This document shows positions 5,313 to 57,928 of a DNA stretch of 64,000 nucleotides, piece by piece; position 1 is the stretch's first letter; each line of letters begins with the position of its first letter. Location of the stretch: NCBI RefSeq assembly GCF_013177675.1, contig NZ_CP042652.1, positions 372,001-436,000 on the forward strand. Reading direction: 5' to 3'. The stretch comes from Arcobacter acticola (GTDB taxonomy: Bacteria; Campylobacterota; Campylobacteria; Campylobacterales; Arcobacteraceae). The position numbers and the translations under genes were made by a program. Below the pieces are notes generated by a model, which saw only the letters and a list, made by a program, of their open reading frames with translations, did no database searches and was not told where the DNA came from.

Positions 5313-6488
5313 ATGGAAATTATTCTACCAAAAATATCTTCAAGTCTATCTAAAATGTGGACTAAGGTTTTAAATCTTGAAAATTCACTTTTTCCTTCTT
5401 TGAAAAGAGAGCTTCAATTAGAAGAGTTGTCAAATAAAGAGCAAAAGCTTATTAAGATATTAGACTTTGCTGCGATTGAAAAAAATATCACTGTCGTATC
5501 TATTACAAACACTCCAAAGCATAGAGAAGAGATTGCACGAGCATTTATTGCAAAGAGTGTTTACAATATCCAAACAACCAGAGACCTTATCGATAGACTT
5601 CATAGTGATAGAACGCTGAGGATCTTGTGTGGGTGGAGATATAAAAACGATATTCCAAGTGAGTCTAAATTTAGTAGAGTATTTAAAGAGTTAAGTGCTC
5701 TTAAAATTGCACAAAAGACGCATGAGCAGTTTGTGAAGGAGTATCTAAGGGATACACTCTTTTTTTATAATGCAAGTGATGCAACAAAAATACCACTGAG
5801 AGAAAAACCTGTAAAAGTTGAAAAAGAAAAGTTTAAACCAAAAAGAAGAGGACGACCTAAAAAAGGTGAAACAAGAGAGCCTAAAACACCCAGTATCTTG
5901 CAGCAACAAGAAGATATGAAAACCACAAAGCAGATGCTATCTTTGGTATCAACGCAGTGTGGAGTTGGAAGAAAACAGAATTCCAAAGGCAACTTTGAAA
6001 CATGGATAGGAGGGAAACTCCATATCAGTGTAGTAGATGGAGATATCCCTATTACTGCTATTTATTCAGGGGCAAATGTTCATGATAGCTCAGTAGCACT
6101 TCCTCTTATAAACGAGACAAGCAAAAAAGTATCATATCTTTATGACTTACAAGATGCAGGATACGACAGCAATATTATCAGAGATTTTTCCAAAAAACTA
6201 AATCATAGACCGCTTATTGATATCAATCCGAAGAACTCCAAAGAGTTAAAAGGAAAAATTCAACTTATAAAAGATGAAAAAAAGAAATTTGAAATTCTAA
6301 ACCTTACTCAAAGTTTAGATACCCATCACTATAACCAAAGAAGTATGGTTGAGCGTGTAAATAAATACCTCAAAGAAGACTTTGGATGCAGTAATATTTA
6401 TTATAAAGGAGCTACAAAAGTAGCTTCTGTTTTAGCATTTGGTATTTTATCAGTTTGTATTCATCAGAGTTTGAAAATGGTAACATAA
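5313..6488 (+). CDS. DDE transposase of the fliL insertion sequence
   Basis: The 391-residue protein has an N-terminal DUF772-like region (about 85-130, with SDRTLRILCGWRYKND) and a DDE nuclease domain. Likely catalytic residues are Asp156 (YNASDATKIP), Asp281 (LQDAGYDS) and Glu347 (NQRSMVERVNKYLK), where the Arg-x3-Glu-x6-Lys spacing is typical of IS4/IS5-superfamily enzymes. Residues 167-175 (KRRGRPKKG) form a textbook AT-hook, a minor-groove motif for A+T-rich DNA, placed between the first Asp and the rest of the core. No frameshift or stop interrupts it. Codon choice (more ATC, CTC, GTC) differs from neighbouring genes, suggesting recent arrival. Confidence 0.92.
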   Translation: MEIILPKISSSLSKMWTKVLNLENSLFPSLKRELQLEELSNKEQKLIKILDFAAIEKNITVVSITNTPKHREEIARAFIAKSVYNIQTTRDLIDRLHSDRTLRILCGWRYKNDIPSESKFSRVFKELSALKIAQKTHEQFVKEYLRDTLFFYNASDATKIPLREKPVKVEKEKFKPKRRGRPKKGETREPKTPSILQQQEDMKTTKQMLSLVSTQCGVGRKQNSKGNFETWIGGKLHISVVDGDIPITAIYSGANVHDSSVALPLINETSKKVSYLYDLQDAGYDSNIIRDFSKKLNHRPLIDINPKNSKELKGKIQLIKDEKKKFEILNLTQSLDTHHYNQRSMVERVNKYLKEDFGCSNIYYKGATKVASVLAFGILSVCIHQSLKMVT

Positions 6489-18719: not shown

Positions 18720-19859
<1,140 letters not shown>

Positions 19860-19900
19860 TTAAAATATTTTGATTATATCTAAAGTTAAATAATAATAAA

Positions 19901-19956
19901 ATTTTATAATAATTATATACTATTTTAATTATAAAATAATAATTTTGGTGTATAAT
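19901..19956 (+). promoter_or_regulatory. Dyad and -10 box upstream of the TolC-PhnD-kinase operon
   Basis: A perfect 10-bp inverted repeat, ATTTTATAAT (19901-19910) and ATTATAAAAT (19928-19937), lies before a -10 box TATAAT (19951-19956) and an AAGG ribosome site at 19976-19979. The dyad could be an operator, but the spacer is nearly pure A/T, so chance is a real alternative. Confidence 0.35.
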
Positions 19957-19984
19957 ATAATAATATTTTTAAGCAAGGCAATTA

Positions 19985-21375
19985 ATGAAAAAAATTCTAC
20001 TAATCTCATTTCTTATGATCTCTTCGATTTTTGCAAAAGAAGTAAAAATAAGTTTAGATGAGGCTATATCCTTAGCTTTAGAAAATAATGGTTTAAATAA
20101 ATTTCAAAGATAAATTTAGAAATTGCAGAGGCTCAATATCAACAAGCTCTTAGTGCAAACTACCCAAGTTTAGATGCTGTTTTATATGCAAATAGAGATA
20201 AAAAAGATTTAATATATCAACAAAGAGGAACATTTACCTTACCTGCAAATTTAGCTGGTGCATTGTCATATGTTACGGGACAACAAATAACTACAATTCC
20301 TGCTGATATAGATGCAACTGCATATGGTAGAGATACAGTTAAAGGTTCACTTGAACTAAATTATCCACTTTATACAGGTGGAAAAATTGAAGCTATTATT
20401 AATCAAGCTAAACTAAATAAAGAATTAGTGAAAGTTGTAATAATAAGAAGTCAAAATGATGTTACTTTTGATGTAAAAAGATACTATTATGGATACATAC
20501 TAACTAATGAATTACATAAAATAGTAGAAAAGATTTATAAAAATATGAAATTTAGTACAGATTTAGCAAAAGAGTTTTTAGAAAGTAGTACAACATTAAA
20601 AATAAACAGAACAGATTATTTAAATGCAAAATTAACAACTTCTTTACTTCAATCAACACTTTCAAAACTAGAATTAAATAGAGAACTATTAAAAAATGCA
20701 ATGGGAAATTTAGTTGGTTTAACTTGGGATGATAAGGTTGAAATTTCTTATGAAGAAAAAGAAATATTAAATCAAAATCTTTCTTTACAAAAAATAATAG
20801 AAAAAGCTTATTCATTAAATCCAGATATTCATCAAGTAAATCTAGCAGTTAAAATAAAAGATGAGCAAATAAATGAAGCCCAATCTGCTTATTATCCTCA
20901 GGTTGGAGTTTTTGGTAGTGTTAATCGAACTTATAATTCTTATGAATATGGATATTTAAATGATGATAATCAAGATACTTGGAATATAGGAATTGCAGTT
21001 AAAATGTCTCTTTTTGATGGCTTTAAAACTAAAAATACAGTCTTAGAAAAGAAATTAAATAAAAATGTAATGGATGAGCAAAAAATATTACTAGAAAATG
21101 CAGTTGCTTTACAACTAAAAAATGAGTTTTTAACTTCTACTTTAGGATATGAGCAGATTAATATATTAAAAGAAGCAGTTGCGACAGCAGCTGAAAATAG
21201 TGAATTAAATCTAAAAGGCTTCGAATATGAAATGGTTGAAGCAAGAGATTTAGTTCAATCCCAGTTAACAGAAGCTTACATCAGAGCAGATTATTTAAAA
21301 AATGTGCATGATTATTTGCTTTCATTAGCTACAATTGATAAATTGATAGGACAAAAATTAGATGAAAGTTTTTAA
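19985..21375 (+). pseudogene. TolC-family outer membrane efflux protein, frameshifted
   Basis: The gene starts at 19985 behind an AAGG site with a signal peptide (KKILLISFLMISSIFA) and the TolC-like ISLDEAISLALENNG, but the frame hits TAA at 20111-20113 after 42 codons. The -1 frame continues unbroken from about 20101 (ISKINLEIAEAQYQQALSAN) to 21375. Adding one A in the A run at 20099-20101 restores a 463-residue protein of normal TolC length, with two helical repeats (NLEIAEAQYQQ and DEQINEAQSAYYPQVG). No slippery heptamer is in phase, so this is an indel mutation or a sequencing error rather than programmed shifting. An internal start at 20263 would lack the signal peptide. It overlaps the next gene by 14 bp. 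Confidence 0.85.
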
Positions 21376-22243
21376 AAATGTTTTAGTTTTTATTTTTCTA
21401 TTTTTAAACATATCTTCAAATGCTGAAGAAAAATTAGTTTTTGGGATTACAGTTTCAGAAAACTATGCTGGAGATGAACATCGTATAAGAAAATTAGCTT
21501 CTAATATGATTAATAAAATGAATATTGAATATGAGAAAGAATTTGATGCAATTTTTTATGATAATCAAGAATTGTTATTAAAAGATTTTAAAGATAAAAA
21601 AAATATTAATGCAGTTGTGCTTTACCCAGCGTTTTATTTTGATAATAAAAACTTAATAAAAAAGATATCTAAAAATCCATTTATTTATAAAACTAGCACA
21701 ACAAGTAGCTCTCAATTATTTTTAATAGCAAATACGAACTCAAAAATTAATTCAATCAGTGATATAAAAAATAAAACGTTTATGAATACAGATTTTAATG
21801 ATACTTATTCAACTTGGTTAGATTATTTAACACTAAAAAATTTAAATAACACATATAAGAAAGTAATAGGAAATCAATTAAAATCTAGTAAATCATCAAC
21901 AGCATTGTTAGATGTATATTTTAATAAAGCAGATTTCTGTGTTATTGAAAAAGAAACATATGTAAATATGTTAATACTTAATCCATCTTTAGAAAAAAAA
22001 TTAAAAGTCGTAGAAAAATCTCCAGAAATATTTTTCTCTGCAATTACAACAATTCACAAAGAGGCAACGCCAGAGTTAATAACTTTAATAAATGAAATAT
22101 TAGATAAGAAAACTTTTAAAGATGATTTTAAAGAATTTTTAAAGTTGATAAATTTAGATTCAGCTTTAAGAGTTGAATTTGAAGACTTGAAAAATTTTGA
22201 AGATTTTTATTCTGAATATAGATTTTTAAAAGGGAAAGAATAA
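21362..22243 (+). CDS. PhnD-like periplasmic substrate-binding protein
   Basis: A 293-residue exported protein with a signal peptide (VFKNVLVFIFLFLNISSNA) followed by LVFGITVSENYAGDEHRIRKL and a two-lobed binding-protein pattern; YFNKADFCVIEKETYVNML and FFSAITTIHKEATPELITLI match the PhnD / type-2 periplasmic family (phosphate or phosphonate ABC-type binding proteins). No ABC permease or ATPase is nearby; instead a membrane histidine kinase follows by three bases, so the likely job is to deliver a ligand signal to that kinase. The ligand is unknown. The gene starts inside the end of the TolC-like gene. Confidence 0.8.
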   Translation: MKVFKNVLVFIFLFLNISSNAEEKLVFGITVSENYAGDEHRIRKLASNMINKMNIEYEKEFDAIFYDNQELLLKDFKDKKNINAVVLYPAFYFDNKNLIKKISKNPFIYKTSTTSSSQLFLIANTNSKINSISDIKNKTFMNTDFNDTYSTWLDYLTLKNLNNTYKKVIGNQLKSSKSSTALLDVYFNKADFCVIEKETYVNMLILNPSLEKKLKVVEKSPEIFFSAITTIHKEATPELITLINEILDKKTFKDDFKEFLKLINLDSALRVEFEDLKNFEDFYSEYRFLKGKE

Positions 22244-22246
22244 TTA

Positions 22247-23848
22247 ATGTTTTTTACTAAAAATACAATATTCTCTAAAATATTTAGATTACTTTTTGTT
22301 CTGTTTGTATTTGTTAGTATTCCATTAATAATATATTCTATTTCTACTCAAAAGAAAATGCTTTTAGATTCTTTAGAAGTTGAAGCTAAAGATATAAATA
22401 GATTTATTGAATTTGCATTGTCTGATGCCTTGCTTTTAAATGATAATTCAGCAATTGTAGAATTTTTAATAGATTATTCAAAGAAAAATGAAAAGCTGGA
22501 AAATATAATTATTTCAAAAGAAAACAATGATTATATAATTATTGAAAAAAATTCTTGGTCATTTGAACCTCAAATAGATCAAAAGTATAAAGATTTAGAA
22601 AAAAATGTTGAAAATTCTTTATTATTTAAATCACCCATCTTAAATACACAAGTTTTTCATCATACTTTCCCTATATATTCTTCAGGAATACATTTAGGAT
22701 GGATTCATTTAAGTATGAGTCTTGATGAATATAATAAAAGATTAGAGACTGTTTATTTAGGTTTTTTTACATTTTTTATTATACTCTTGGGATTTTCTTT
22801 ATTTATCTCATATATTCTTTCAAAATCAATTTCAGATCCTATTGTTTCATTAAATAATGTTGTAAGTAATATTTCTAAAGGAAATTTAAAATTAAGATCA
22901 AATTATGAAAGTGATGATGAAGTAGGAGCTTTAGCTCAAGGTTTTAATACAATGATATCTGCAATTGATGAAACACAAATACAGTTAAAACTTTCCCATG
23001 AAAAACTTGAAGAAAGAGTAGAATTAAGAACAAAAGATTTAGATAATACAAATAAATTATTAGAAACAAAAACAACAGAACTTGAAGAGTTAAATAAATC
23101 TCTTGATAAAAAAATAAAAGAAGAGATAGAAAAAAGAATTCAACAAGAAAGTATTCTAATACAACAATCAAGACTTGCAGCAACAGGTGAAATGATAGGT
23201 AATATTGCTCACCAATGGAGACAGCCATTATCTTTGATTACCACATGTGCAAGTGGAATAAAACTTGAAAAAGAGTTTGGTGTTTCAACTAAAGAAAGTG
23301 AAGTAGCAAAATTAGATACTATTATTCAATCTTCAAATTATTTATCTAAAACAATAGATGATTTTAGAAACTTCTTTAAGCCAAATAAAGAAAAAAACTA
23401 TTTCTCTATTGAAGAAATGGCAAACCAATCTATCTCGTTAATAAGCGCAAGTTTTGCTTTTCATTATATAAAGATAAATAAAAACTTTGCCAATATAGAA
23501 AAAGTTTTTGGTTTTCCAAATGAATTTTCACAAGCAATATTAAATGTATTAGCAAATGCAAAAGATGTTTTAGTTCAGAAGGAAATAGAAAATCCACAGG
23601 TAAATATTAATATATATGAAAATGAAGAGTTTGGTTTTTTGGAAATAGAAGATAATGGAGGTGGTATAAATCCAAATATTCTAATAAAAATATTTGAACC
23701 ATATTTTACAACAAAAGAAAAGAATCAAGGTACTGGAATTGGGCTTTATATGTCTAAAATGATTGTTGAAAAAAATATGAGTGGAAAATTAACCGTTATT
23801 AATACTTCAATTGGTGCAAAATTTATTTTTGCTATTCCAAAGGAATAA
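22247..23848 (+). CDS. HAMP-domain sensor histidine kinase
   Basis: A 533-residue inner-membrane kinase: first membrane helix about 12-30, periplasmic domain about 35-160, second membrane helix about 168-192, HAMP about 193-245 (SDPIVSLNNVVSNISKGNL), a long coiled coil about 245-310, then the phosphoacceptor region GNIAHQWRQPLSLI (His322) and a C-terminal ATPase with N box NVLANAKDV, G1 EIEDNGGGI, F box FEPYFTTK and G2 GTGIGLYMSK. The HQWRQPL dimerisation helix is the variant common in Campylobacterota kinases. No response regulator is adjacent, so its target is elsewhere. The PhnD-like protein directly upstream is the probable periplasmic input. Confidence 0.9.
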   Translation: MFFTKNTIFSKIFRLLFVLFVFVSIPLIIYSISTQKKMLLDSLEVEAKDINRFIEFALSDALLLNDNSAIVEFLIDYSKKNEKLENIIISKENNDYIIIEKNSWSFEPQIDQKYKDLEKNVENSLLFKSPILNTQVFHHTFPIYSSGIHLGWIHLSMSLDEYNKRLETVYLGFFTFFIILLGFSLFISYILSKSISDPIVSLNNVVSNISKGNLKLRSNYESDDEVGALAQGFNTMISAIDETQIQLKLSHEKLEERVELRTKDLDNTNKLLETKTTELEELNKSLDKKIKEEIEKRIQQESILIQQSRLAATGEMIGNIAHQWRQPLSLITTCASGIKLEKEFGVSTKESEVAKLDTIIQSSNYLSKTIDDFRNFFKPNKEKNYFSIEEMANQSISLISASFAFHYIKINKNFANIEKVFGFPNEFSQAILNVLANAKDVLVQKEIENPQVNINIYENEEFGFLEIEDNGGGINPNILIKIFEPYFTTKEKNQGTGIGLYMSKMIVEKNMSGKLTVINTSIGAKFIFAIPKE

Positions 23849-23926: not shown

Positions 23927-25354
23927 ATGAAAAAAATATTAATTATACTAGATGGTATTGTTGCAAAGAAATTAATGCAAAGAATTATTGAAGCTAATAC
24001 GGGCGACAATAGTTACGATGTTATTTATATGAGTGATGTGATATTACCTGTACAAAAACCTTCAAATTTTACATTTTATAAGTTTGATCCAACATCTAAA
24101 TCAAAGCTAGCAATGGTTTTAGATAAAAATATTCATACTGAAGTTTTAATTGCACTTAACTCTAAAGACGAGATGTTAAATGTAATAAAAAATATTAGAG
24201 AACATACAAAAAATCTTCAGATGACTATTTTGGATTATTGGGGAATGAAATCAAGTGACCCTTTAGTAACTATATATAGAGGTATTGAAGTTCTTGCTAA
24301 TGGAATGGTTGAGAAACTTCCAAATGTACCTGTTTTAGCTCAAAATATTGGATTAAAACAAGGTGAAATTATGGAAATTAGAGTTCCTTTTGGAAGCTCT
24401 TATGCATATAGATATATAGGTTCTATTGAGCAAAAAGAGTGGAAAATATTTGGACTTTATAGAAACCAAAAAATGATTACAATAAAACCATCATTAGTTT
24501 TAAAACCAAATGACCTTATTTTAGTTATTGGAAAACCTGAAGTTTTAATGCAAGTTTATAATGTAATAGGAAAAACACAAGGGCAGTTTCCTATGCCATT
24601 TGGAAGTAATATTTATTTATATTTAGATTTATATTTCGAAGATGAAAATAGTGTAAGAAAAGCTATTGAAGAAGCTAAATATTTAAATCAGAAATTAAAA
24701 AACAATTTATTAATAGTTAGAATCACAAGACCAACTACTGTTGAGATTATGGATTTTATAAAAAGTGAATTAAAATATTTCCCAACAATTAATTTAATTA
24801 TTGATTATTCAAATAAGGGTTTTGCAAAAATTATAAAAGAAGATTCAAGAAAAAACAATATTGGTATGATTATGTTAACTTCTGAAATGTTTAAAAATAA
24901 AGAGAATACTAAATCTGTTATGGAATTGAAAATTCCAGTTTTTAAATTTGGTAAAGAGAAGTTAAAATCAATTAAAAGAACAGTAATTGTATTAAATGAT
25001 ACAAACTCTTATGAACAAATTTCTCCAATTGTATTTGATATTTCAAGTCAATTAAAAGTAAAAACAAAAATATTTGATTTAGATCCTATTGGAGAAAAAG
25101 ATGGAAAGTCTACTCTTTTAGATCATTTTGAAAATCTTGCAAAAATATTTAATGAAAAATTAGAAGTTGTAACAAGTGGTGAAAATCCTATTAGAGAATT
25201 AAAAAAACAAAGAAATATGCTACAGATATTACCTTTAAAAGATGAAATGTTCAAAAAAAGATTCTCTTTTAAATTTTTATATACAAATAGTGATTTTATA
25301 GCATTTGATATGAATAAATTTAATCAACTATTAATTCCAATAGTTGAAGAATAA
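23927..25354 (+). CDS. TrkA-C (RCK) domain protein, COG3400-like
   Basis: A 475-residue cytoplasmic protein with a Rossmann-like N-terminal part (KKILIILDGIVAKKLMQRI), a TrkA-C/RCK-C-like domain around residues 145-215 (EIRVPFGSSYAYRYIGSI through KPNDLILVIGKPEVL), and a C-terminal half with repeated alpha/beta units resembling USP-like or RCK-like lobes. It belongs to a conserved Campylobacterota family (COG3400) with no settled function; relation to potassium or other cation transport control is suggested only by the RCK domain. No ion channel gene adjoins it. It is followed by the aminotransferase gene. Confidence 0.75.
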   Translation: MKKILIILDGIVAKKLMQRIIEANTGDNSYDVIYMSDVILPVQKPSNFTFYKFDPTSKSKLAMVLDKNIHTEVLIALNSKDEMLNVIKNIREHTKNLQMTILDYWGMKSSDPLVTIYRGIEVLANGMVEKLPNVPVLAQNIGLKQGEIMEIRVPFGSSYAYRYIGSIEQKEWKIFGLYRNQKMITIKPSLVLKPNDLILVIGKPEVLMQVYNVIGKTQGQFPMPFGSNIYLYLDLYFEDENSVRKAIEEAKYLNQKLKNNLLIVRITRPTTVEIMDFIKSELKYFPTINLIIDYSNKGFAKIIKEDSRKNNIGMIMLTSEMFKNKENTKSVMELKIPVFKFGKEKLKSIKRTVIVLNDTNSYEQISPIVFDISSQLKVKTKIFDLDPIGEKDGKSTLLDHFENLAKIFNEKLEVVTSGENPIRELKKQRNMLQILPLKDEMFKKRFSFKFLYTNSDFIAFDMNKFNQLLIPIVEE

Positions 25355-55648: not shown

Positions 55649-56284
55649 TCATTTTATATAATATCCTTCATCTAAACTATTAAAAATTATATCTTTTGTT
55701 ATTTTTCTTCTTAATCTTTTTACTAAACTTCTAATTGCATCAGAGCTTTTTGAAACTCTATCGTATATATAATCTTCTATTTGAGAATGACTTACTTTAT
55801 TACTTTTATTATTTATTAATAAAATAAGAAGATTTCTTTCATTTTTTGTGAGTTCTATTTCTATATTATTTAAAAATAGTTTTTTATCATTTTTATTAAA
55901 ATAAAGATTTTCATCTAAAATAATAATATGAGGTTTTTGAGTATATTTATTTATCTTTAATAATAATTCTTCAATATCAAAAGGTTTTTTAATATAGTCA
56001 TCACAACCTTTTAAATAGGCTTCTTTGATTTGATCTATATTTATATTTGCACTAATCATTATAACTTTAGAGTTAGGATTTATATTTTTAATATGTTCAA
56101 GTAGATATAAACCATCAATATTTGGAACATTTATATCAAAAATATATAATTCATAATCACCTATGATATTCTCATATGCTACATCACCTTCATAGAAACT
56201 ATCAACTATAAAGTTTTCAGTTTCTAACATCTCTTTTATTGATTCATTTAATGAGTAATCATCTTCTAGTAAAAATATTTTCAT
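55649..56284 (-). CDS. OmpR-type response regulator
   Basis: A 211-residue two-component regulator with an N-terminal receiver (FLLEDDYSLNESIKEML, acidic pair D8/D9, phosphoacceptor Asp50 in IFDINVPNIDGLYLL, Lys in DYIKKPFDIEEL near residue 100) and a C-terminal winged-helix DNA-binding domain (IELTKNERNLLILLINNKSN and DAIRSLVKRLRRK). The gene follows 18 bp after the sensor kinase start region on the same strand, so the two form a cognate pair. Its targets are likely nearby envelope genes, by inference. Confidence 0.92.
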   Translation of the reverse strand: MKIFLLEDDYSLNESIKEMLETENFIVDSFYEGDVAYENIIGDYELYIFDINVPNIDGLYLLEHIKNINPNSKVIMISANINIDQIKEAYLKGCDDYIKKPFDIEELLLKINKYTQKPHIIILDENLYFNKNDKKLFLNNIEIELTKNERNLLILLINNKSNKVSHSQIEDYIYDRVSKSSDAIRSLVKRLRRKITKDIIFNSLDEGYYIK

Positions 56285-56302: not shown

Positions 56303-57928
56303 TTATATGTCAATATTGTGGCAATTAAATTTATAAGAAAAAATATTTAAACTATTTTCCATAGATGTTACTTTTACATCAATATTATATTTTTTACATA
56401 TATCTTTTACTATTGAAAGACCTAATCCATGACCGCCTGAACTATCATTTTCCCTTGCATATTTATCAAAAATTTTATTTACATCAATTATTTTTTTCCC
56501 AAAAGATTGAAATTCTAAAACATTATCTTTTAATATGATTTTTATTGTACTTTCAATTTTACTGTACTTAATTGCATTTGAGAGATTGTTATCTATTAAT
56601 CGGTGTAATTCTATTTTACTTGTATCAATATATATGTTATTAATAACTTCTAAATCAAGTTTTCTATTTTGGGTTGAAGCAATTATTTCAAAATATTTTA
56701 TTCTATCTTTCAATATTTTTTGTAAGCTTATATGTTCAATGTGATAATTTATTTTCTCTTTTGTATGTAAAAATGTCATGTCTTCATAGGAGTTTTCCAA
56801 GGTTTTTAATGCCCCTTCAATCTTTTTGGAATATTTATCTTGTCCAAAAAATTTATTTCGAAGTTGAATATTTAAACTTATAATTGCCAATGGAGTTTTA
56901 ATCTCATGAACAGAGTGCTCTATAAATTTATCTTTATACGTTAAAAGGTTCTCTTTAAATCTTACTTTATAAATTATATATATAGTAATAATTCCAATAA
57001 AGCAGATAAATATCATTGCTAAATTTAATTTGATAAGATTGTTATTATATTCACTTTCATCAAAAACAATACTATATACTATCTTTGCTTCATCAAAAAT
57101 AGGACTTTTTTGTGAGAAATAAGTAACTTTATATTTATTGTTTTCTTTTTCTAAATATGCAGTTTTATACTCATTCTCTTTAATCTCATTTGATAACTCT
57201 TCTCCTTTTTTTATTCTTTCTTCAATATCTTTAAGGGTTGGTTTATATGATTTTAAAGATTTAAAAATAAAATCACCAATATATCCATCATTAAATAAAA
57301 TATAGGCATTCGAAGCTTTTATCTTAGGATTTGAATCAATAACATGTTGAAGTTTTTTTAAGTCATCATTTAGTTGATTAAATGTGTAACTAACTTGTAA
57401 AACTTTGTTATCTTTTTTACTTAGATATGAATCAGTGTAACTGAAGAATTTTAAAGAGTACATCTCAAATATAGGAGGAGATACTGCAATAATATTACTT
57501 TTATAATGATTTTCAAATAACTCTTTTGCAAAACTCAAATCAAAATCTAAATCAGCAGGAAAAGTAGTGTTTTTTATGATTAAATTTTCATCTGTGATAT
57601 AAATATTATATTCAGAATCACTAGTATTTTCATTTATCTTTTTATAAATTTCATCTAAAGGTATATCATAAGATTTATCTTGAAGATAAGTTAAAACCTC
57701 TTTATGTTTAGCTAATAAAATCTCTTTTTGAGTTGAAAATTTATATAAAAGTTTTGTTAATAAATTGTTTGTATCTTTTTGAATTTGGTAAAAAGTGATT
57801 TCTTGATTTTTTAAATGATCATCAGATAGATTTTTTACTAATAATCTATAACTAATAAAACTAAATAATAAGAATAATAAAATTGTAAAAAATAAAATAG
57901 TAGATGATTTAGGTAAAAAATCCTTCAA
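56303..57928 (-). CDS. Membrane sensor histidine kinase
   Basis: A 541-residue kinase with a first membrane helix (about 10-31), a large periplasmic sensor domain (about 32-300, containing SEYNIYITDENLIIKNTTF, a Cache-like pattern), a second helix (about 303-322), the H box SVHEIKTPLAIISLN (His341) and a C-terminal ATPase with N box NNLSNAIKYSK, and G box GGHGLGLSIVKDI. No HAMP domain is evident. It sits between a TolC-like gene and its response regulator, all leftward with short gaps, so it may report on envelope or efflux state. Confidence 0.9.
   Translation of the reverse strand: MKDFLPKSSTILFFTILLFLLFSFISYRLLVKNLSDDHLKNQEITFYQIQKDTNNLLTKLLYKFSTQKEILLAKHKEVLTYLQDKSYDIPLDEIYKKINENTSDSEYNIYITDENLIIKNTTFPADLDFDLSFAKELFENHYKSNIIAVSPPIFEMYSLKFFSYTDSYLSKKDNKVLQVSYTFNQLNDDLKKLQHVIDSNPKIKASNAYILFNDGYIGDFIFKSLKSYKPTLKDIEERIKKGEELSNEIKENEYKTAYLEKENNKYKVTYFSQKSPIFDEAKIVYSIVFDESEYNNNLIKLNLAMIFICFIGIITIYIIYKVRFKENLLTYKDKFIEHSVHEIKTPLAIISLNIQLRNKFFGQDKYSKKIEGALKTLENSYEDMTFLHTKEKINYHIEHISLQKILKDRIKYFEIIASTQNRKLDLEVINNIYIDTSKIELHRLIDNNLSNAIKYSKIESTIKIILKDNVLEFQSFGKKIIDVNKIFDKYARENDSSGGHGLGLSIVKDICKKYNIDVKVTSMENSLNIFSYKFNCHNIDI

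Follow-up and report, generated by a model that had tools for sequence, protein, structure and literature searches.

A conserved gene set encoding a TolC-family channel, a PhnD-like binding protein and a histidine kinase in Arcobacter acticola and its relatives, a candidate sensory module for cyclic di-GMP

A 64,000-nucleotide stretch of the Arcobacter acticola genome (contig NZ_CP042652.1, positions 372,001 to 436,000; hereafter the window) contains three adjacent plus-strand genes that we describe here as a putative sensory module. The genome is a single 3.02-Mb contig, and the G+C content of the window is 26.7%. From the layout of open reading frames and from Pfam matches, the three genes encode a TolC-family outer-membrane protein (19985–21375; OEP domain PF02321, 117 bits in the TolC-like part), a PhnD-like periplasmic solute-binding protein with an N-terminal signal-like segment (21362–22243; Phosphonate-bd domain PF12974, 52 bits) and a membrane histidine kinase with HAMP, HisKA and HATPase_c domains (22247–23848). 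Hydrophobic segments of the kinase at about residues 6–35 and 165–196 leave a part of about 130 residues in between. The PhnD-like gene overlaps the end of the TolC-like gene by 14 nucleotides (nt) and the kinase gene starts 3 nt after the end of the PhnD-like gene, just as a preliminary description of the locus had reported. That description had proposed a sensing module and had noted that no ATP-binding cassette (ABC) permease, ATPase or efflux pump adjoins it, which agrees with our survey of the window.

The three genes occupy a slot whose borders lie outside the module: on one side tgt (18720–19841, minus strand), separated from the module by a divergent intergenic region of 143 nt (19842–19984), and on the other a TrkA_C-domain gene (23927–25354, plus strand) that is present in 99 of 104 genomes of the family. 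Many relatives have the same gene order in the slot between tgt and the TrkA_C gene. Among these 104 genomes, 27 have a TolC-like match (E-value ≤1e-30, one each, the weakest 1e-51) and 33 have a PhnD-like match at E≤1e-3, of which those with E<1e-8, 28 in all, entered the count. Five were left out: G016 and G097, where the match lies within longer frames of 850 and 978 residues, G090, where it is weak, G122, where the gene is broken, and G091, probably a true carrier, whose match is a 101-residue fragment next to the TrkA_C gene at the end of a contig (L171). On this count, 27 genomes have both genes, none has TolC only, one has PhnD only and 76 have neither (Fisher's test, 4e-24, kinship ignored); because the genomes are related, that value merely describes the pattern. 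The single genome with PhnD but no TolC, G120, has a truncated PhnD gene.

A search of 398 genomes of the order gave a similar picture (PhnD profile at E≤1e-25, TolC profile at E≤1e-40, both taken to cover the same genomes, as the two result tables suggest). The PhnD profile matched 16 genomes and the TolC profile 17, the weakest TolC match (G187, E 5e-43) being set aside as a pump component encoded beside HlyD and AcrB genes. All 16 remaining TolC-clade genomes have PhnD, 15 by profile and G224 by a contig-end fragment beside TolC. G291 has PhnD without TolC; this genome is 79% complete, and its contig begins inside the locus. Twelve of the 16 TolC carriers belong to the window's family and the other four span two families, with the orders PhnD–TolC–PhnD–kinase (G309, G317), TolC–PhnD–kinase–response regulator (G384) and PhnD–TolC–kinase–response regulator with HD-GYP domain (G224). 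Since the same order recurs in other families, we rejected a chance neighbourhood; judged by these comparisons, the three genes are a conserved module. Operon conservation had been suggested as a check on the sensing proposal, and the genes are indeed conserved together across genera and families, two other families included, with no ABC importer partner in sight.

Genomes in which the genes are separated bear on a simpler explanation, namely that this is a plain binding-protein–kinase system and that TolC is a passenger with an unrelated role, linked to it by history in a shared slot. TolC lies apart from PhnD in eight of the 27 family carriers (G032, G035, G108, G115, G116, G117, G118 and G123), all of which have both. 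In five of these (G035, G115, G117, G118 and G123) the slot holds TolC as its sole module gene (L153–L157) and PhnD–kinase pairs lie elsewhere (L023, L025, L066, L067, L070, L084, L087, L089 and L091), as would be expected of a passenger; many PhnD–kinase loci without an adjoining TolC fit equally well. In G032 and G116, the slot has TolC directly next to a kinase, without an intervening PhnD (L134, L135), and PhnD is found elsewhere (L022, L085), and in G068 TolC–PhnD and kinase–regulator are on separate contigs (L068, L137). A passenger would not, however, be expected to accompany PhnD as faithfully as this one does: every one of the 27 TolC-carrying family genomes has PhnD, unlinked cases included, TolC, PhnD and kinase are adjacent in other families too, and three genomes (G108, G120 and G122) show joint decay of separated module parts. 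In G108 (L088, L158), copies of one transposase gene, identical over 454 residues, disrupt both TolC and the kinase gene at the PhnD locus. This genome has 31 matches to that transposase, 27 of them full length, reflecting a recent expansion, and a double insertion by chance is unlikely, although not impossible. In G120 and G122, both about 85% complete, the slot retains just pieces of TolC (L170 and L169, respectively), and the PhnD genes, which lie at other loci, are broken as well. The pattern suggests that TolC is kept or lost with PhnD even where the two are unlinked, and that this is not an operon effect alone; we regard the passenger explanation as quite unlikely.

The PhnD and kinase genes of the window are as first described, but the TolC-like gene is split between two frames. 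Translation from 19985 ends after 42 codons at a stop codon (20111–20113), and the continuation to 21375 lies in a second frame, whose first listed start is at 20263. The break falls at a short A run (site and resulting stop, 20099–20113), and the genome profile search likewise reports one internal stop in this gene; relatives carry intact copies. In comparison with G014, the ratio of nonsynonymous to synonymous substitution rates (dN/dS) is about 0.22 for TolC past the break, about 0.25 for the kinase, 0.47 for PhnD and 0.09 for the TrkA_C neighbour. TolC past the break is under purifying selection comparable to that on the kinase, and the break is therefore either recent or an assembly error. 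For this genome only, and compatibly with our reading of the family, the module could instead be a decaying remnant with a TolC pseudogene and an orphan kinase. Such decay would account for the frame break and for the absence of an adjoining regulator in the window, and it has company in the broken copies of G108, G120 and G122 and in the sparse distribution of the genes within the genus (2 of 31 genomes; in six others, L159–L164, no module gene lies in the slot between tgt and the TrkA_C gene). Yet PhnD and the kinase are intact, the TolC dN/dS is similar to that of the kinase, the layout of open reading frames in the window shows no other obviously split gene, and assembly errors of a single base are common in A runs. 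We consider a decaying remnant doubtful, if well worth keeping in mind.

That the binding protein and the kinase signal together is very probable. We mapped 40 kinases in the fetched regions, window excluded, that score >550 bits against the module kinase profile, and in 32 mapped cases PhnD lies immediately before the kinase, the distance between the two genes ranging from –20 to +24 nt. The PF12974 match, together with the best PDB matches of the PhnD-like profile (PhnD and PtxB chains 5jvb, 3p7i and 5o2j, all weak, with E 1e-4 to 4e-3), might be taken to indicate the solute-binding subunit of a PhnCDE-like ABC importer to which kinase and TolC are incidental. We rejected an importer for lack of ABC parts, no permease or ATPase gene being seen beside the binding protein gene here or in the mapped relatives, with neighbouring genes Pfam-scanned in part. 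The position immediately before the kinase also argues against it, as does the score for the PhnD equivalog TIGR03431 (32.2 bits against a cut-off of 261.1). A run of Ser/Thr lines the pocket in PhnD-type proteins; by a rough mapping, only 2 of 37 rows, the window included, have at least two Ser/Thr in the three pocket columns, so that the motif is not kept. All told, an importer is extremely improbable. The preliminary description had named a complete ABC importer elsewhere as a finding that would overturn its proposal, but the two further PF12974 proteins that score above the cut-off in this genome adjoin kinases (L028:6061-9879 and L029:12905-16268), one of them with a receiver–kinase hybrid, and no importer partner was seen.

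The loss of the Ser/Thr motif and the low equivalog score also speak against the phosphonate or phosphite ligand that had been suggested. AioX, a PhnD-like arsenic sensor, has serines in its pocket (PMC5908839). By dN/dS, PhnD is the fastest-evolving of the three module genes, and a single locus can carry as many as four copies of it (L075); both features would be consistent with a kinase that receives input from more than one ligand or contact. Several further arrangements of binding proteins came to light. PhnD-fold sensors recur in the host genome. At L033:5699-8161 (minus strand), an NMT1 and an SBP_bac_3 binding-protein domain are both fused to a kinase of 820 residues in total. In one genus, PhnD or PhnD–kinase genes directly follow gyrB, at what is likely to be the replication origin, without an adjoining regulator (L026, L066, L067, L070, L146); at L026, dnaA and dnaN precede gyrB. 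Lone PhnD-like genes with neither kinase nor TolC (L027, L062, L071–L073, L078, L083, L085) possibly encode extra input proteins for a kinase elsewhere.

The earlier statement that the module has no response regulator holds beside the window genes but not for the module in general: 26 of the 40 mapped kinases, at 24 loci, have a regulator in the same gene run or divergent at its start. A cyclic di-GMP (c-di-GMP) domain (GGDEF, EAL or HD-GYP) is present in 25 of these 26 neighbouring regulators. Our script flagged GGDEF or HD-GYP in 24, Pfam added L204 (REC-GGDEF) as well as an additional EAL domain in one L065 regulator, and the regulator at L134 is receiver-only. Two loci, L136 and L137, entered the set partly through a regulator search, and without both the counts are 24 of 38 kinases with a regulator and 23 with a c-di-GMP domain; the G114 kinase (L138), on the other hand, was scored as having none although a response regulator with a GGDEF domain adjoins TolC on another contig (L064). 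Because the outputs of these receiver proteins are GGDEF, EAL or HD-GYP domains, the signal would be expected to change c-di-GMP, which is probably the main output of the module family as far as gene neighbourhoods can tell. In A. acticola the regulator is presumably encoded elsewhere. An ortholog of the 426-residue receiver/PAS/GGDEF protein of other genera is absent from this genome, the best match being 43% identical and lying at a locus (L139) without kinase or PhnD matches, and the divergently encoded 324-residue receiver-GGDEF protein of other genera has no match here at E≤1e-45. A protein with an NMT1-type binding domain fused to PAS and GGDEF is encoded at L032:7460-9370 of the host genome, so a periplasmic-binding-type input to c-di-GMP exists in the host in another form.

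Elsewhere in the window, the sole other receiver gene that we found (55649–56284, 211 residues) stands beside its own kinase gene (56303–57928, 541 residues); both are on the minus strand, and this second two-component pair is unlinked to the module. The window also holds genes for a fatty acid cis/trans isomerase (CTI, PF06934; 60387–62717, minus strand) and a DDE transposase (DDE_Tnp_1, DUF772; 5313–6488, plus strand).

The sequence of the TolC-family protein gives a hint as to its role. Both tip repeats of pump-type channels have a glycine that contacts the adaptor, and in MdsC the change of either tip glycine to alanine abolished MdsAB–MdsC pump function and reduced cross-linking to the adaptor (PMC4069162). 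The module proteins belong to the same fold family, and their profile matches TolC chains. In the profile alignment with those chains, however, the repeat-2 glycine column of 24 module TolC members contains Glu in 11, Asp in 11, Gln in one and Gly in one (L204); in the window the corresponding Glu codon is at 21229–21231 (plus strand). Thus, 22 of the 24 have an acidic residue in place of the tip glycine (V/TGV motif) of tripartite pumps, whereas the pump outgroup G187 keeps it (G187 and the TolC chains of the alignment are the only pump controls in this comparison). Tip repeat 1 has two to three more residues than in G187, and the window protein and its nearest relative have no glycine there. 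The segment YNSYEYG, which we presume from the topology of TolC to be a loop on the cell surface, is well kept in the main branch of the module TolC clade. No adaptor or pump gene was seen adjoining the module at the mapped loci.

These features have to be set against the view that TolC is a regulated output, in which the kinase would sense a toxic or signalling compound and raise its export through TolC with a pump from elsewhere. Efflux or secretion is the typical function of TolC-family channels, TolC shares an operon with the other genes in most carriers, and there is a DNA-binding regulator near one related kinase (L137), all of which such a view would explain. It sits poorly, though, with the missing adaptor and pump genes and with the replacement of a docking glycine whose equivalent in MdsC does not tolerate alanine (PMC4069162). 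Because the neighbouring regulators are mainly c-di-GMP enzymes rather than DNA-binding proteins, and because TolC and PhnD are kept or lost together even when unlinked, the earlier suggestion of a co-regulated output is unsupported, and we think it unlikely.

Comparison with known systems helps to place the module. PhnD and PtxB of phosphonate and phosphite importers share the fold family of the binding protein (PF12974, best PDB matches), but the module protein differs in the lack of permease and ATPase, the distance to the equivalog cut-off and the lost Ser/Thr motif. TolC, OprM, MdsC and AbuO share with the module TolC the OEP domain, the two repeats and a TolC-type profile match; the module protein differs in having no adaptor or pump gene beside it, in the acidic residue at the second tip, in the longer first tip and in its long first surface loop. 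In NspS–MbaA and YfiBNR a periplasmic protein controls c-di-GMP synthesis, and YfiB adds an outer-membrane part, but the membrane protein there is itself the c-di-GMP enzyme, whereas the module would relay its signal through a kinase to receiver proteins. We know of no TolC partner for pairs of the TorT–TorS, LuxP–LuxQ or AgtS/AruS type. In these pairs too the binding protein is the sensor of a membrane kinase (PMC5908839; PMC11113362), although LuxP and TorT are distinct from PhnD-like proteins in phylogeny and structure (PMC5908839).

The closest published match consists of AioX-type PhnD-like sensors: in AioX–AioS–AioR, as in ArxXSR and ArrX, a protein of the same fold signals beside a histidine kinase in arsenic oxyanion sensing rather than serving import (PMC5908839). 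As with AioXS, the solute-binding protein gene of the module abuts a membrane histidine kinase gene. We nevertheless rejected membership, because the regulators differ: the DNA site to which AioR binds lies upstream of an RpoN promoter, whereas the linked regulators here are GGDEF/EAL/HD-GYP proteins, a receiver-only protein and, once, a Trans_reg_C protein, with no RpoN-type regulator of a molybdoenzyme among them. Moreover, AioX chains in the PDB do not match the module PhnD-like profile at E≤0.01, and the module includes a TolC-family channel, unlike AioXSR. A literature search that left most subscription journals uncovered, and hence gives a weak negative, found no description of a TolC/PhnD/kinase set; within the same coverage, no TolC protein built into a two-component receptor was found.

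On balance we favour, with somewhat more confidence than doubt, a binding-protein–histidine-kinase system that feeds c-di-GMP and in which a TolC-family channel has exchanged efflux for sensing. The ligand would be a small molecule, which need not be a phosphonate; it would enter the periplasm and be bound by the PhnD-like protein, and the loaded protein would act on the periplasmic part of the kinase, as adjacency and known systems such as AioX–AioS suggest. From genome context in relatives, the kinase would in turn feed receiver proteins with GGDEF cyclase or EAL/HD-GYP phosphodiesterase outputs. The channel, whose association with the other two is observed, would be a dedicated partner that has left efflux. 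Its co-occurrence with PhnD and its altered docking tip point to a part in the receptor, most likely on the input side, as a ligand path through the outer membrane or by contacting either the binding protein or the kinase, although we give the input side itself only an even chance. More tentatively still, and with the odds against us, the altered tip may dock on the PhnD-like protein, the sensor part of the kinase or both, instead of an adaptor, making one line from the outside through channel, binding protein and kinase to c-di-GMP.

Several points weigh against this reading. The co-occurrence counts ignore shared ancestry, and because most carriers hold the genes linked, part of the pattern is one operon kept or lost whole. 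Residues other than the tip glycine could serve for docking of an adaptor, or the adaptor could be encoded at a different locus. We infer rather than observe contact of TolC with PhnD or the kinase, and the AlphaFold models were too poor to be used (mean predicted local distance difference test score 44.7 for PhnD and 31.3 for a relative's TolC, from two sequences each). No regulator adjoins 14 of the 40 mapped kinases or the window kinase, the 14 including, in one genus, the majority of the loci at the slot (L074, L075, L077, L079–L081), as in the window, and the counts of 26 of 40 and 25 of 26 are raw, with no rate among the remaining kinases of these genomes to set them against. L136 and L137 have a second regulator (221 and 220 residues) besides the GGDEF one, that of L137 being of the DNA-binding type (Trans_reg_C), and L134, as noted, adjoins a receiver-only protein. 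The orphan regulator that the preliminary description had proposed to look for did not emerge: across 31 genomes of the genus, all matched by the receiver-domain profile (1 to 23 matches each), these matches revealed no regulator confined to the two carriers. Finally, the frame break may mean that the module is decaying in this genome.

Binding-protein–kinase pairs and TolC channels are each known; for a stable combination of the two, apparently with c-di-GMP enzymes as its output, the literature search found no description. In A. butzleri, 37 kinases, 42 regulators and 25 c-di-GMP proteins were counted, and most two-component systems outside chemotaxis allow no functional prediction (PMC2147049). 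If TolC is part of the receptor, the module would widen the roles of outer-membrane channels and could serve as a model for signal transfer across two membranes. It would also supply a first testable pairing for some of the many kinases and c-di-GMP enzymes that have no assigned role in Arcobacter-like bacteria.

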